Shown piece after piece: positions 4,143 through 40,361 of a stretch of 48,006 nt of DNA (its first letter is position 1; each line of letters starts with the position of its first letter). A program made the translations under genes and the position numbers. Source of the DNA: a bacterium OL-1 (GTDB lineage: Bacteria; Actinomycetota; Coriobacteriia; Coriobacteriales; Atopobiaceae); assembly GCA_000752675.2 (NCBI GenBank), contig LM994625.1, forward strand, positions 489 through 48,494. The letters are read 5' to 3'. The notes under the pieces are model-generated. The model did no database searches. It worked only from the letters and a program-made list of their open reading frames with translations, and was not told where the DNA came from.

Positions 4143-4217
4143 TTATTGAACGTTTTTCCTGGCATTCTGGAACTCAACTGGGGAAACGTTCTTCTCGCCA
4201 GGAATAACGCGCAATAA
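4143..4217 (+). repeat. family A inverted-repeat element, copy A1
   Basis: This 75-nt element begins TTATTGAACG and ends CGCGCAATAA, so its ends are inverted repeats. An internal CAACTGG lies at element positions 33-39. It has the same layout as A2, A3 and A4 and is the most diverged at its left end. Confidence 0.75.
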
Positions 4218-11583: not shown

Positions 11584-11659
11584 TTATTGCGCGATTTTCT
11601 CGACCAGACATGCGTTTACCCAGTTGATGGTCATCTCATCAAGAAATTTCGCGCAATAA
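11584..11659 (-). repeat. family A inverted-repeat element, copy A2
   Basis: This 76-nt element has ends TTATTGCGCG and CGCGCAATAA. Read on the minus strand CAACTGG is at positions 34-40. It pairs with element B1, 82 bases to the right. Confidence 0.85.
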
Positions 11660-11741
11660 ATAGCGCCGAGAAGCCCTGACACCAAAAAAGGCCATAAGGG
11701 GAGACGAGCGGGCACTCGGCCGCGCTGCAAAGCTGGCTATT

Positions 11742-11826
11742 CCGTTCTTTAGCGGTTTCTGAGAAACGACCGCGTTGTTTCCGCAGGTCATAAGAGGCGT
11801 CGTTCTCAAATACCGCTAGAGAACGG
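11742..11826 (+). repeat. family B inverted-repeat element, copy B1
   Basis: This 85-nt element begins CCGTTCTTTAGCGG and ends CCGCTAGAGAACGG, with inner GAGAA(A)C/GTTCTC arms. The core TTTCCGCAGGTC starts at position 37. It lies 17 bases from the stop of the membrane-protein gene. With A2 it fills most of the 11437-11843 gap, where I see no gene. Confidence 0.85.
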
Positions 11827-19145: not shown

Positions 19146-19346
19146 GTGACCTCGCATTCCTTGGGGCGCGGCGGTGCACGCCCCATGCGGGCCCGTCGCG
19201 ACCACCAAGGATACCGCAGGTGGGAAACAGGAGGCCCGCGGCCCAAGCGGAATGGTTAGAAGGTTCTCCGCGAACTTCTCGGTGTTTAGAATGCAGGGGA
19301 AACGCCGGAAGGGCTGTCACGGATGGCTAGTGCTGCAGGCGGAAGT

Positions 19347-19588
19347 GCATCGAACCGCCCTTCGTTACACAAATTCGATCCTCGCTGCGCCGAAGTGCCC
19401 TCCGTTACACATGGTTTTTCGGTCCGACAAAGTAGCGAGGCCCATCTGTATACTATATATGGTATTTGAATGCTCATATTAATCAATATGTTGTAACTGA
19501 TACTCGGGGTCATGCCAAAACTACGTGTAACGTAGGGTAGTTCGGCGCACAAGATTGGCAATTTGTGTAACGAAGGAGGTTTCGATGC
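19347..19588. repeat. locus E: 242-nt inverted-repeat element with paired 40-bp-spaced units
   Basis: The outer arms GCATCGAA (19347) and TTCGATGC (19581) start a ~75-nt imperfect inverted repeat. Each arm contains two CGTTACAC units exactly 40 bp apart: GTTACAC at 19364 and 19404, inverted GTGTAAC at 19525 and 19565. Between them lie matching GCGCCGAA/TTCGGCGC segments. The central ~114 bp are AT-rich (TATACTATATATGG, ATTAATCAATATG). No gene is visible. It resembles a short nonautonomous element or a multi-operator site. Confidence 0.75.
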
Positions 19589-19652
19589 AGGAATGGCCCA
19601 GCCAAGGCCTTAATGCATCGCATCGAGCAAAACGGGCATCAATCGAAGACAC

Positions 19653-27105: not shown

Positions 27106-28569
27106 CTACTCCACCGAGTCCGGCTCGACGGCGTTGGCTGGGTCTCCCTCGTCGTGCGCCAAAGCCTTCGCATCCTGGCCGGAGGCGTCCTCCCCCGCCC
27201 GCGCCTGCGCGGCCTCCTCAAACGCCGCCTTCATGGTCTTGTTGCCCCGGGTGAGGCGCCTGATGGTGAGGTCCTCCGCCTTGTCGTTGGCAAGCCGCAG
27301 CTGGTTCTCGGACTTGGTGAGGCTCTCCTTCACCTTCTGCAGCGACGCAATGGAGCGGTCTATCTGCTCTATTGCCTCCGAGAAGCGCTTGGAGGCCTGC
27401 TCGTAGTTGCGTCCAAAGCCCTGCTTGAACTTCTCGAGCTTCTCCTCAAAGCTGGTTACATCGAGGTTCTGCTGACGTACCTCGGCAAGCTCGCGCCGAG
27501 CCGAGACCGCGTTCAGGCCGGCGTTTCTCAGGAGGCTGATGATTGGCAGGAAGAACTGCGGGCGCACCACGTACATCTTGGGGTAGCGATACGAGACGTC
27601 CACGATGCCCGCGTTGTAGAGCTCGCTCTCGGGCTCAAGCGTAGAGACGAGAACGGCGTATTCGCAGTGCTTGTTGCGGCGGTCTCGGTCGAGCTTGGCG
27701 AAGTGGTCCTCGTTGCGCTTGCGGTTGACGGAGTTGTCGTCCTCGTTCTTCATGTCGAACATGATCGAGACGATCTCTGTGCCAGACTCGTCGCACTCCC
27801 TAAAGACGTAGTCTCCCTTGCTGCCATCGACCACGTCGTTGTCCTTGTGGAACTCCGCGCGCGGAAACGCCATCATGCGCACCTTGTTGAACTCGGACTC
27901 GCAGTGCTGCTCCAGGGTCTCGCCGATGAGCTTGACCGAGAGGCGCGAGCGCTGGTTCTTGATGCGCTCTATCTCGTCATCGCGGTCGCGAATCTCCTGG
28001 TCCTTGTACTTCTCCTGCTCGACCAGACGCTGGTTGAGAACGGCAATCTCCTGGTCCTTCTTGGCCGAGACCTCCTGCACCTGCGACTGCAGCTCGACCA
28101 GGCGGCGGTCGCGCTCGGCGGTGGCGCGCGTCACGGCAAGCTCACGAGCGCCCTTTGCCTGCTCTTCCTGCGCCCGCAACTGCTCGGTGAGGCGCGCGAT
28201 GCTGGCGTCTCTCTGGGCAAGCTGCTCCGCAGACTCCTGCTGTGCGGCCGCAAGTTTCTGCGCTGCCACGTCCTGCGCCTGTGCAAGGCGCTCCTGCGCG
28301 CTCTTCTCGGCAGTTGCCTGCTGTACCTTGGCCTCGGCCTGCGCTTGCTCGAGCTGCGAGGAGAGCTTGGCAACCTCCGCACGCAGGGCCTCCTCGGCCT
28401 TTGCGCGCGCCGCTTCCACAGCGGCAGCCTCGCGCTGCTCCATGAGGGCGCGCTGCTCGTCCAGCTGGCGCTTGAACTCGGCGTCACGCACCTGCTGCAG
28501 AATCTGCGCGTAGCCCGCCTCGTCCACCTGGAAGACCTTCCCGCAGTTGGGACACTTTATCTCGGCCAT
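27106..28569 (-). CDS. DUF2130 protein with N-terminal CPNC motif and long coiled coil
   Basis: The protein has 487 residues. The N-terminus MAEIKCPNCGKVFQVDEAGY has one CxxC knuckle. Residues about 25-240 are an Ala/Gln/Glu/Lys-rich coiled coil. The conserved DUF2130 core follows (IGETLEQHCESEFNKVRMMAFPRAEF, GDYVFRE, IMFDMKNE, HCEYAVLVSTLEPES). The acidic and aromatic residues of the core recall nuclease-like folds, but no function is established. AAGGAGGTCCC precedes the ATG. It is not linked to a defined operon. Confidence 0.85.
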   Translation of the reverse strand: MAEIKCPNCGKVFQVDEAGYAQILQQVRDAEFKRQLDEQRALMEQREAAAVEAARAKAEEALRAEVAKLSSQLEQAQAEAKVQQATAEKSAQERLAQAQDVAAQKLAAAQQESAEQLAQRDASIARLTEQLRAQEEQAKGARELAVTRATAERDRRLVELQSQVQEVSAKKDQEIAVLNQRLVEQEKYKDQEIRDRDDEIERIKNQRSRLSVKLIGETLEQHCESEFNKVRMMAFPRAEFHKDNDVVDGSKGDYVFRECDESGTEIVSIMFDMKNEDDNSVNRKRNEDHFAKLDRDRRNKHCEYAVLVSTLEPESELYNAGIVDVSYRYPKMYVVRPQFFLPIISLLRNAGLNAVSARRELAEVRQQNLDVTSFEEKLEKFKQGFGRNYEQASKRFSEAIEQIDRSIASLQKVKESLTKSENQLRLANDKAEDLTIRRLTRGNKTMKAAFEEAAQARAGEDASGQDAKALAHDEGDPANAVEPDSVE

Positions 28570-28660
28570 GGGACCTCCTTTGGCGATGTTCCTGCATAAA
28601 GGGTACACGGCCCGCGCGACATTATTTAGCGAGACAGAGAAGCATGGCAGGATCCGCAGC

Positions 28661-28921
28661 TTGTTACCGGCGCGTTCTCCTTTGCGCGCACCAACTGGCC
28701 AGATGCACGCACCGCTCAACGGCCCGGTAAAAACGAGCGGAAGGGGTTTGTTCCTTGTTACCGGCGCGTGGCAAGCTTCTCTCGCCAACTGGCCAGATAC
28801 ACGCACCGCTCAACGTGCCGGTAACAACGGGGGCAACTGGCCACCACTTATTACCGGCCCGTAGACAGGCGGGGAAGTTTCCGCAGGACCCAAGGATTTC
28901 TCCCTACGGCCCGGTAACAAC
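28661..28921 (+). repeat. family C: three 74-nt inverted-repeat elements in tandem
   Basis: Copies span 28661-28734, 28755-28828 and 28848-28921, each 74 nt, with starts 94 and 93 bp apart. Each begins TT(G/A)TTACCGG and ends CCGGTAA(A/C)AAC. Copies 1 and 2 share an internal CAACTGGCCAGAT at position 32; copy 3 has TTTCCGCAGGACC at position 31 instead. The spacer between copies 2 and 3 holds one more CAACTGGCC. They fill the 28570-29040 gap, which contains no gene. The long repeats and lack of uniform spacers rule out CRISPR. Confidence 0.85.
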
Positions 28922-29040
28922 ACTTGCGACAGCAGCCTCAAGGAACTCCGTACGACCGCACAAAGCGAGACAAAGAAACGCGGCGGGAGCCAAGAGGCCC
29001 TCGCCGCGTGCGGTGTGGCGGTGCTTGTGCAGATGCTGGC

Positions 29041-30693
29041 CTAGGCAGCCCAGCCCTCAGCCGAGAGCGTGGTTGCCTCGGCACCGGTCGAGTAGCTCGC
29101 GCCGCTGCCGGTGGTGTAGGAGCCGGTGGAGTTCTGGCGCTGCTGCATGCGCTCCTCGATCCACTGCTCAAGCTCGTCCTGCGTGGTGCCGTTGCCGTTG
29201 CTGTTGTCGTTCAGGCCGGTGCCGTCGCCATTCAGGCCAATGCCGTTCCCGGTGGTGCTGTTAGAGGAGGAGTTCTCCTGCTCGCGCTGAGCCTGGAGAG
29301 CCTCGTCGGAGCCAAGCGTCACCGTGAGATCCTTGGTATCGTTGCCACGCACGACGGTCACGGTGACGGTGTCGCCAATGTCATGCGAGCGCACCGCAAG
29401 GACCATGCCGTCGGCGGAGGTGATCGCCTCGCCGTCCATGGCAACGATGATGTCGCCCTTCTGGATGCCGGCCTGGTCGGCAGGGCCACCAGAGACGACC
29501 TCGGCAACGTAGGCGCCCTGGTTCACGGAGAGTCCGTTGGAGCGGGCGTTCTGGGCGTTCACGGTCTGCATCGAGAGGCCGATGTAGGCATGCGTGACCT
29601 CCTCGCCGCTAATGATCTTGTCGGCAATCTTGATGGCGTAGTTGCCGGGGATGGCAAAGCCGATGCCCGCGAAGGACTCAGTCGAGGACGAGTAGAGCGT
29701 GGAGATGCCCACGAGCCGGCCCTCATCGTTCACGAGCGCGCCACCGGAGTTGCCGGGGTTGATAGCAGCGTCAACCTGGATGAGGTTGGTGTAGATGGTG
29801 TCGCCCGAGCTGGACTGCAGGAGCTCGTTGCGGTACAGCGCAGAGACGATGCCCTCGGAGACGGACTGGTCGAGGCCAAACGGGCTGCCAATGGTCATGA
29901 CCCAGGAGCCAACGTTGAGCTGGGAGGAGTCGCCCAGCTCGATGGGGGTCACGGAGTCACCGTTGAGGTCGGCCTTGATGACCGCGAGGTCGGAGGAGGA
30001 ATCGGAGCCAACCACGCTGGCCTCGTAGCTCTTGCCGCTGATGGTCACGCTGACGGAGGTGGCACCGTCAATCACGTGGTAGTTCGTGAGGATGTCGCCG
30101 TCCGTGTCGAGAATGACGCCGGAGCCAAGACCCTCACCGCTGTCGGTAGTGACATTCACCGAGACCACGGAGGGCATGGCCTTTGCGGCTACGGCCTCGG
30201 CCGTCGACGCGTCGGTATCGCTCGACGTGATGTTGATGGTGCCGTTGCTCGAGCTGGAGCTACCCGAGGAGGAACTGGAGCCCGCAGTTGTGGAGGGCTT
30301 GCCAAAGAAGCCCGTGAGGCTCAGCACGAGCACCACGACGAGCGCTGCCACAACTCCAGAGATCGCACCTGCAACAATGGGCTTGCTCACGCCGGCCTTC
30401 TTGTCCTTGCTCGGCTTATCTCCGCCGTTGCCCGAGCCGCCGTTGCCGCCCGCTGCGGGCTGCACGGGCTGGGGCTGCTGCGTAGTCTGCCCCGGCTGCG
30501 AGCCGGCCTGCTGCTGGTTAGCGTTGACGTAGCCGGCGCTTGGCGAGTACGCCGCACCCTTGCCACCATAGTTTGCGTAGTCGTAGCTCTGCGTGGGCTG
30601 AGCCTGTGTGGGCTCGGCGCCCTGGGTCTGCTGAGGGGTCGAGCCGGCGCCGGTCATGCCCTCACCAGGTTCGCCCGTGGAATAGTCTGCCAT
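29041..30693 (-). CDS. HtrA/DegP-like membrane-anchored serine protease
   Basis: This 550-residue envelope protease has a Gln/Gly/Pro-rich cytoplasmic N-terminus (about 1-105), one membrane helix (VAGAISGVVAALVVVLVLSL), a Ser-rich linker, then a trypsin-like domain with His in LTNYHVIDG, Asp in SDLAVIKAD and Ser in NPGNSGGAL. A single PDZ domain follows (AYIGLSM to VVRGND). The C-terminal tail of Asn, Ser, Gly and Thr is longer than usual. Such proteases degrade or process misfolded exported proteins. ATG at 30693 is preceded by GAAGGGTGGGA at slightly long spacing. Confidence 0.93.
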   Translation of the reverse strand: MADYSTGEPGEGMTGAGSTPQQTQGAEPTQAQPTQSYDYANYGGKGAAYSPSAGYVNANQQQAGSQPGQTTQQPQPVQPAAGGNGGSGNGGDKPSKDKKAGVSKPIVAGAISGVVAALVVVLVLSLTGFFGKPSTTAGSSSSSGSSSSSNGTINITSSDTDASTAEAVAAKAMPSVVSVNVTTDSGEGLGSGVILDTDGDILTNYHVIDGATSVSVTISGKSYEASVVGSDSSSDLAVIKADLNGDSVTPIELGDSSQLNVGSWVMTIGSPFGLDQSVSEGIVSALYRNELLQSSSGDTIYTNLIQVDAAINPGNSGGALVNDEGRLVGISTLYSSSTESFAGIGFAIPGNYAIKIADKIISGEEVTHAYIGLSMQTVNAQNARSNGLSVNQGAYVAEVVSGGPADQAGIQKGDIIVAMDGEAITSADGMVLAVRSHDIGDTVTVTVVRGNDTKDLTVTLGSDEALQAQREQENSSSNSTTGNGIGLNGDGTGLNDNSNGNGTTQDELEQWIEERMQQRQNSTGSYTTGSGASYSTGAEATTLSAEGWAA

Positions 30694-30890
30694 GGAAACG
30701 TCCCACCCTTCTTCTGTGGCGGCCCACCGGGCCGTCCTGCTTACGTCTGTGAATGTACCCCGATACGACAAGGGTGCCGCTCGGGGCGCGGCATCGCCAC
30801 GCCTGCGCAACAAGTCTTTTGTGTTCCTGAAAGCCCCTCCTGGCAAGGAACTTTGTCCCTCTCTGCCTTCTTGTGGCATCCGCTCTTGCA

Positions 30891-30969
30891 TTCTTTAGCG
30901 GTATTTGAGAACGGCAATTCTAGCGACTTGCGGAAATGGCGAGTCCGGTTCTCAAATACCGCTAAAGAA
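30891..30969 (-). repeat. family B inverted-repeat element, copy B2
   Basis: TTCTTTAGCGGTATTTGAGAAC at the left is matched by its complement at the right, a long arm with no mismatch. Read on the minus strand the core TTTCCGCAAGTC is at the same position as in B1. The element lies upstream of htrA. Confidence 0.88.
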
Positions 30970-31103
30970 CGGCTGGGGGTAAGTGGGGTGAGCAATCCGG
31001 CTCTCCTCGCAGCGTCATCTCAAGGTGTCGGGTCCCGCCAGCTGGCAGGTCTTCTCGGCAAATTGCGAGGTTCCCCCATCAAACAGTAGGTCCGCTCGGC
31101 AAT

Positions 31104-31179
31104 TTATTGCACGAAATTACTTTATGAACAGAGTGTCAACTGGTTAAATGCAATTCTAACTAGAAAAATCGCGCAATAA
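31104..31179 (+). repeat. family A inverted-repeat element, copy A3
   Basis: This 76-nt element has ends TTATTGCACG and CGCGCAATAA, with CAACTGG at positions 34-40. It follows B2 by 134 bases. Together they repeat, in the same relative order and orientation, the A2-B1 pair at 11.6-11.8 kb. The 30694-31243 gap has no gene. Confidence 0.85.
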
Positions 31180-37173: not shown

Positions 37174-37248
37174 TTATTGCACGTTATTTCTCGCGGAAGC
37201 GGCATATGGCCAGTTGAGCAATGAATTCTCGGGAATAACGCGCAATAA
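37174..37248 (-). repeat. family A inverted-repeat element, copy A4
   Basis: This 75-nt element has ends TTATTGCACG and CGCGCAATAA. Read on the minus strand CAACTGG is at positions 33-39, followed by CCATATGC. It stands alone, without a family B partner. Confidence 0.85.
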
Positions 37249-40152: not shown

Positions 40153-40162
40153 GTGCCGCGGA

Positions 40163-40195
40163 ATTGATTTACCGAGCAACGGGATTGATTTACCG
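40163..40195. repeat. short direct repeat
   Basis: ATTGATTTACCG occurs at 40163 and 40184, 21 bp apart, between gpmA and ilvE. GGGATT and AATCCC also flank the second copy. The 40200-40360 stretch shows nothing else. Confidence 0.5.
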
Positions 40196-40361
40196 GACAA
40201 CTTAATCCCGCGGACGAGAAGGGCGACCGTACCTCACCATGCAGTAACGGGAACAAATTCGACATTTTCGCGCCTAGGAACGCTGTTATCTATCGAGGTC
40301 GTACCCCACAGTGCTCAGACAGTCGGAATCGCGAGAAGGTAGGGACCACGCAGGGTCCCAG

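Follow-up and report, generated by a model that had tools for sequence, protein, structure and literature searches.

A tandem array of intergenic palindromic units in a genome of Atopobiaceae: one conserved central box, several families of arms and a possible bent and clamped DNA site

In the genome of bacterium OL-1, three inverted-repeat units of equal length follow one another in the space between two genes. What keeps their ends and their length, and what could such an array do? We analysed the whole stretch of 48,006 nucleotides that contains it (hereafter, the window). The first-pass annotation of this DNA described three tandem units of 74 nt with starts 94 and 93 bp apart. The units and the distances are real; however, one unit is 73 bp when counted from TT to AA, and becomes 74 bp with the trailing C. 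The array is intergenic and lies between an HtrA-like protease gene and a DUF2130 gene, both on the minus strand. No tRNA was found in the window. The features of the locus are as follows.

27106–28569, minus strand: DUF2130 gene (PF09903); its start (start codon chosen by us) is about 92 bp from the array
28661–28733, plus strand: F1 unit 1, 73 bp; inverted arms at 28661–28675 and 28719–28733
28693–28704, plus strand: core box of unit 1, AACTGGCCAGAT, two mismatches to the box
28734–28754: spacer 1, 21 bp, about two helical turns
28755–28827, plus strand: F1 unit 2, 73 bp; core box at 28787–28798, AACTGGCCAGAT, two mismatches
28828–28847: spacer 2, 20 bp
28848–28920, minus strand (opposite orientation): F1 unit 3, 73 bp; core box at 28877–28888 (minus strand), TCCTGCGGAAAC, one mismatch
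29041–30891, minus strand: gene of an HtrA-like trypsin/PDZ protease; its 3′ end is about 120 bp from the array

We call this family of units F1. Its arms are TTGTTACCGGCNCGT (15 bp each). In the window, the left ends of units 1, 2 and 3 are TTGTTACCGG, TTGTTACCGG and TTATTACCGG, and the right ends are CCGGTAAAAA, CCGGTAACAA and CCGGTAACAA. Between the arms, at positions 33–44, there is an asymmetric central box (roughly AHCTGSGNAAAY), and this core sets the orientation of each unit. The core, the opposite orientation of unit 3 and the wider group of repeats described below were all missing from the earlier anatomy. It had also been proposed that the interior changes while the ends and the length are kept. 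The ends and the length are kept, but the interior is not simply replaced: the right halves of units 1 and 2 are mostly alike (52 nt at 87%).

The array is beyond chance: the end pattern TTRTTACCGG-N40-60-CCGGTAAMAA occurs at 12 places in the host genome (G000), which form five clusters with two or three members each; the reversed pattern, used as a control, gave 0. We built a covariance model from these 12 places. With this model we counted 21 distinct F1 places in the host genome (E < 1e-5), at ten loci with one to four units each. The genes beside these loci, named by Pfam, share no theme: the neighbors are tgt/secD, a choloylglycine-hydrolase family gene/GPx, Bmp/ilvD, 2-hydroxyacid dehydrogenase/Phd antitoxin, TetR, JetD-like/aminotransferase V, L7/L12 with a gene that we take by recognition to be rpoB, YgbB (IspF) and DUF554/LysR. 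By reading, one locus lies between convergent genes, two between divergent genes and seven between co-directional genes, and there is no lean towards gene 3′ ends.

At E values up to 0.001, the model matched 10 of 40 genomes, the host included: G000, seven genus mates, G008 and G034. One genus mate (G004) has a single weak match. The six other genomes of the genus (Tractidigestivibacter, formerly Olsenella; Atopobiaceae, Coriobacteriales in the NCBI taxonomy) carry F1 mostly at orthologous places, with one to four units each. The G008 match is a long hairpin with an F1-like end. G034 belongs to another family and has two units on contig 86 (L047), where the adjoining genes begin identically to those at G000:C10. 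This contig looks like a mis-binned copy of a Tractidigestivibacter locus in a metagenome assembly, and its rows are kept in the unit, spacer, mismatch and interior-pairing counts given below. Candidate units outside the clade, from Marinobacter (two records, one distinct sequence) and Melioribacter, have five mismatches to the box; both rows were dropped, which left 89 distinct units.

We compared the flanks for 57 entries, each an array or a single unit, in seven genomes: 16 groups were obtained among the matches listed, and nine multi-member groups held 50 of the 57 entries. The arrays of the relatives are thus the subset among the matches listed; the largest flank group (11 entries) was split by hand into two loci for the constraint and locus comparisons, and entry 39, with five mismatches per unit, is doubtful. 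Judged from the flanks, the positions of F1 are largely orthologous and the unit number is not. A comparison of copy number had been suggested, and the number of F1 units does differ between species: six species have 3, 3, 2, 3, 2 and 2 units at the window locus. Unit type changes as well, and units are swapped, lost and gained. The array is not a solitary feature of one strain, a case that the first-pass annotation had envisaged, for it stands at this locus in five other species and further copies occur elsewhere in the genome. In G004, the array is absent at the window locus and the gap there is about 330 bp shorter. A 28-nt direct repeat (79%) flanks the array at 28628–28655 and 28964–28991, and one stretch of the array-less locus of G004 aligns to both copies (a single case). 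This repeat could be a duplication from the origin of the array, or chance.

Which parts of the unit are conserved? Among the matches listed, 64 of the 89 distinct units are 73 bp long, 24 are 74 bp and one is 72 bp. The distance from the core to the right end is constant in 73-mers and 74-mers, and the extra base falls to the left of the core. The box is matched exactly in 36 of these units, with one mismatch in 37 and with two to six mismatches in 16. We then compared 118 pairs of orthologous units, again among the matches listed; the two members of a pair are equally long and their interiors 0.6 to 0.97 identical, and the pairs are non-independent. The mismatch was 82/1298 (0.063) and 95/1298 (0.073) in the outer 11 bp of the two arms, and 105/472 (0.222) and 78/472 (0.165) at the inner arm positions 12–15 and 59–62. 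It was 135/1534 (0.088) in the core, although units were oriented by the best core match, a procedure that favours the core. Between the arms and the core it was 517/2036 (0.254) and 348/1534 (0.227). As judged from these pairs, the outer arms and the core are held, the inner arms hardly, and the remainder drifts.

The spacers are regular too. Among the matches listed, there were 49 distinct pairs of neighbouring units within 200 bp of each other (orthologous pairs each count once, and the pair from G034 is among them): 37 spacers were 20–21 bp, nine were 30–32 bp, and the others were 28, 45 and 125 bp, one each. At one locus, orthologous spacers were 32 bp and 20 bp. Because one helical turn of DNA is 10.5 bp, the spacers would be near two or three turns and the unit near seven turns, on an assumed period and few independent spacers. 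The arrays mix unit orientations.

The first-pass annotation supposed that a protein or an RNA fold reads the ends and a fixed distance. Constraint on the ends and the distance bears this out in part (118 orthologous pairs; 89 units, among the matches listed), but the RNA fold fails for F1. Among the matches listed, arm position 12 is unpaired in most units and pairs in 29 of the 89. Mismatched arm pairs in the 89 units were G.T in 40 cases, A.C in 50 and other in 107, with no excess of G.T, and a double change that keeps Watson-Crick pairing was seen once in positions 1–11. Pairing in the F1 interior was no better than in shuffled sequences (thinned set, 60 units), pair counts for covariation in the first 12 units were not above shuffles, and no Rfam match to F1 was obtained at two thresholds. 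Folding against shuffles on the two strands gave z values of −4.4 and −4.1 for unit 2, −2.0 and −2.4 for unit 3, and −1.2 and −1.6 for unit 1; however, a fold better than that of shuffles, as in unit 2, is expected of any inverted repeat. On folding, pair counts, Rfam, mismatch asymmetry and interior pairing, the RNA reading was rejected for F1; this rejection does not extend to F2 (see below) and some relatives. In these comparisons, the F1 arms behave as DNA half-sites, not as RNA stems.

The core is not confined to F1. In a sample of 61 genomes of the bacterial family, 33 contained the core 15-mer CAACTGGGNAAAYRC, and the reversed-pattern control gave 0 in each. Among 396 genomes drawn from the phylum, of which 35 are members of the same order, six have a stricter 16-mer: four of the six are from the same family and two from another family of the order, and the reversed control gave one match in each of two genomes. 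Perfect 12-bp inverted arms surround 52 of 115 core boxes versus 6 of 345 places taken at random. A single register of the dyad (8 or 9 bp, right minus left) is shared by 36 of the 52 armed boxes. The arms have many sequences, with families that differ by genus, and not all boxes are armed. Element lengths between families range from 46 to 148 bp. A near-perfect hairpin that has the core for its loop is seen in some relatives (L211). In the longer elements (110–148 bp; L168, L199, L202, L204, L206 (G065), L231 and L232), a second inner inverted pair like GAGTAG...CTACTC was seen by eye between the outer arms and the core. A coding reading of the core (N-W-x-N in one frame) is at odds with a unit of L024, which by eye has a stop in that frame. 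In IMG/VR, 63 stretches have one core match each; judged by the size of the collection, we take these as chance.

The host genome has at least three arm families (F1, F2 and F3). The arms of F2, TTTAGCGGT/ACCGCTAAA, are unlike those of F1. We collected 54 copies of F2, dispersed at many places with identity up to 94%; 51 of them have one length, and the core is in the same register as in F1. The "73 bp" of F2 is counted between points of our choice and the inversion of its ends continues outward for 5 bp or more, so the agreement with the 73 bp of F1 carries no weight. The weak matches in G004 are units with other arms, TTATTGCGCG (F3), most of them with the same core. Besides the F1 array, the window contains two F2 elements, three F3 elements and one degenerate F3-like element. 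These and a further core box are listed here.

4143–4217, plus strand: degenerate F3-like element; core AACTGGGGAAAC at 4176, outer ends placed by eye
11584–11659, minus strand: F3 element; arms TTATTGCGCG, core AACTGGGTAAAC
11748–11820, minus strand: F2 element; arms TCTAGCGGT/ACCGCTAAA, core ACCTGCGGAAAC
30894–30966, plus strand: F2 element; core ACTTGCGGAAAT, one mismatch to the box
31104–31179, plus strand: F3 element, 76 bp; core AACTGGTTAAAT
37046, minus strand: further core box, AACTGGGCAAAC; arms of another sequence, 10/12 matched
37174–37248, minus strand: F3 element, 75 bp; degenerate core AACTGGCCATAT

At two places in the window (11584–11820 and 30894–31179) F3 adjoins F2, and further F3-F2 pairs are suggested in the genus. 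In the terms of the first-pass annotation, these adjoining elements would probably count as another family. The flanks of F2 (for example, L355, L356 and L359) tend to be C/T-rich on the left and G/A-rich on the right; therefore, C-rich tracts precede F2 on both strands, and these are possibly Rho-related. The window has other repeats. At 40159–40200, a 21-bp sequence (CGGRATTGATTTACCG...) stands twice in tandem; it is similar to the hairpins beside the RAYT gene of the genus (L139, L143) and is likely a RAYT REP. At 19346–19589 there are long inverted repeats nested in one another (30 nt at 90%, 33 nt at 85%), and no core box was seen in the sequence there. A tandem array with 27/54/81-bp periods at 590–875 probably consists of coding repeats.

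The placement of the wider group was compared with control gaps, with gene calls from our own crude gene caller. Of thirty elements, almost all from outside F1 (the set includes one F1 unit, L007, and seven elements of F2 or F3 from the genus), 11 were convergent, 12 co-directional, two divergent, four inside predicted ORFs and one unclassified; the control gaps were 4 convergent, 16 co-directional and 11 divergent. For F2, 21 were convergent, 17 co-directional, 13 divergent and three inside, versus 3, 11 and 9 in the control (Fisher P 0.044). The core had the same orientation as co-directional genes in five cases and the opposite one in seven in the 30-element set, and in 10 and seven cases in F2. 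By these counts, non-F1 elements and F2 appear to lean towards gene 3′ ends, without strand preference. RIBs are reportedly found at 3′ ends of transcription units (so the title of Boccard and Prentki, 1993).

How can a constant centre and changing arms be explained? Tentatively, we favour a double-stranded DNA site: a shared factor would bend the core and a dimer would clamp the two arms, as in BIME-1 with IHF. Arms, core, register, fixed length within a family, constraint and orthologous persistence are read from the sequence, and the proteins, bending, clamping and role that we put forward are built on them. In this reading, the three F1 units are copies from one family particular to the genus, and that family is part of a larger group of palindromic sites in intergenic DNA. 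Every such site would have two arms, inverted and specific in sequence, with the asymmetric core box at the dyad. The core would be bound and bent, most likely by a nucleoid protein common to the bacterial family, and the bend would bring the arms to a dimeric arm-binding protein, which clamps both. DNA of 73 bp is stiff; arms that are held together need a bend between them. With 73–74 bp, about seven turns, the F1 arms would be on one helical face, and spacers of about two or three turns may hold neighbours in phase and thereby join the units of an array into a single larger complex. The trace that a bent and clamped complex would leave in the sequence is a conserved core at the dyad, flanked by variable arms whose distance keeps them in phase. 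If the specificity of arm binding diverged and the core factor did not, the arm families would differ as they do. Such intergenic sites could organise DNA or affect transcription. No binding protein for the arms or the core was found.

A lesser but real possibility is that these are MITE-like mobile elements. The arms would then be terminal inverted repeats of several transposases, the core an aid to transposition (for example, an IHF-type site), and the constraint would reflect movement or capture, not host function. The units are indeed short and non-coding (checked by ORF lists) with terminal inverted repeats, F2 is dispersed in 54 copies with identity up to 94%, the F1 array and about 330 bp are missing at the window locus of G004, unit number and type change between species, and arm families differ by genus. 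However, no convincing target-site duplication was seen: the best direct-repeat signal beside F2 has z 3.0 among 126 settings. No transposase was found in the 20 neighbouring G000 proteins examined, two of which have no Pfam match. Apart from the gap in G004, an empty-site check gave 12 joined-flank matches, and the four inspected had no clean junction. Moreover, most F1 entries (50 of 57, among the matches listed) are in orthologous groups with constrained arms and core, and transposon families usually show the opposite pattern, in which the ends are constant and the centre changes. A mobile origin is plausible and compatible with the clamped DNA site, and the copy number of F2 favours mobility. 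We consider it unlikely that the elements are RNA or single-stranded DNA hairpins, with arms as the stem and the core as the apical loop (a terminator, mRNA stabiliser or small RNA). The near-perfect hairpin relatives (L211), the convergent-gene excess in the 30 elements and F2, and the good folding of unit 2 would agree with this. So would F2 arm pairs 5/69 (z 1.6–2.0) and 15/59 (z about 3), which co-vary weakly, and pair 12/62, with 25 T.G versus 3 C.A cells, as a hairpin would predict. In F1, in contrast, position 12 is mostly unpaired, G.T is not favoured, the interior is unpaired and covariation does not exceed that of shuffles; in addition, arrays mix orientations, core orientation is independent of gene direction, and Rfam gave no match.

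Sites of site-specific recombination or integration have a similar plan, inverted arms around an asymmetric centre. Here the arms would be recombinase sites and the core the crossover region, in keeping with units being swapped, lost and gained between species. Nevertheless, about 17 bp of free interior separate each arm from the core, units in an array are 20–125 bp apart, too close for cassette genes, and a recombinase, which the first-pass annotation advised looking for, was recognised in none of the neighbouring genes examined. This makes recombination very unlikely. Classical REP/REPIN elements moved by a RAYT (Y1) transposase seemed promising from presence and absence in the genus: PF01797 is present in seven of eight genus genomes and missing in G004, which is without F1. 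In the family sample, PF01797 is present in 32 of 61 genomes and the core in 33 of 61. The neighbourhoods and G004 speak against this link, and we regard it as highly improbable. In the three RAYT loci of the genus that were examined for hairpins (L139, L140 and L143), the gene is flanked by a different hairpin, CGGGATT...AATCCCG; eight RAYT loci of the genus contain one lone core-like 12-mer (L143), and the core is in 0 of 20 RAYT neighbourhoods from 11 other core-positive genomes. Furthermore, G004 has core elements (F3) without PF01797, and, compared by eye, 11 of the 33 core-positive genomes have no PF01797 match.

As far as the consulted part of PMC2817692 goes, BIME-1 consists of two inverted REPs with an inter-REP sequence that interacts with IHF, and BIMEs have regularly spaced repeats in alternating orientation (PMC2817692). 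On this comparison, BIME-1 with IHF is the nearest described plan. Like F1, the RIB/BIME-1 of E. coli is intergenic, and both have two inverted arms around a central site. However, F1 arms are 15 bp, not GTAG-tagged and, by reading, not hairpins in themselves; one core serves many unrelated arm families; the central site is an IHF site there, whereas for the F1 core IHF is at most a candidate; F1 spacers are 20–21 or 30–32 bp; and no RAYT link was found at the loci examined. Correia/NEMIS elements of Neisseria are described in the part consulted as MITEs, some with an IHF site, and resemble the present units in being short, non-coding and inverted at their ends; some also contain an internal DNA motif (PMC2229807). 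They differ in that F1, with counted ends TT...AA, forms tandem arrays, its ends vary between families while the centre is kept, and F2 has no convincing target duplication beside it. GTAG/CGTC-tagged REPs and RAYT REPs are palindromes of 20–40 bp in the sections seen, which make no mention of Coriobacter-, Olsenella, Atopobium, Collinsella or Eggerthella (PMC3733652). They share with the present elements an intergenic palindromic nature and several families per genome, but the F1 unit is longer (73 bp) and its interior is unpaired.

The usual definition of an interspersed repeat goes by its ends. In the present group the ends change around a centre that is kept, and the clade concerned comprises Atopobiaceae plus two genomes from a different family within the order. 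Among the matches listed in the open-licence literature, for Olsenella, Tractidigestivibacter, Coriobacteria and Atopobium and for the sequences of the elements themselves, no described repeat system of this clade was found. A bolder proposal, which we hold to be speculative and rather improbable, is a family-wide code for chromosome folding: one core factor and diversified arm-binding proteins would form several distinct families of dyad complexes per chromosome (at least F1, F2 and F3), each of fixed length, with phased arrays in F1. The constant register to the dyad provides a handle, in that the core may serve as bait for one shared protein and the arms as baits for several specific ones. 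Should these proteins be found, they would reveal how intergenic DNA is organised in these gut bacteria and would offer a way to test why RIB-like elements arise repeatedly in bacteria.
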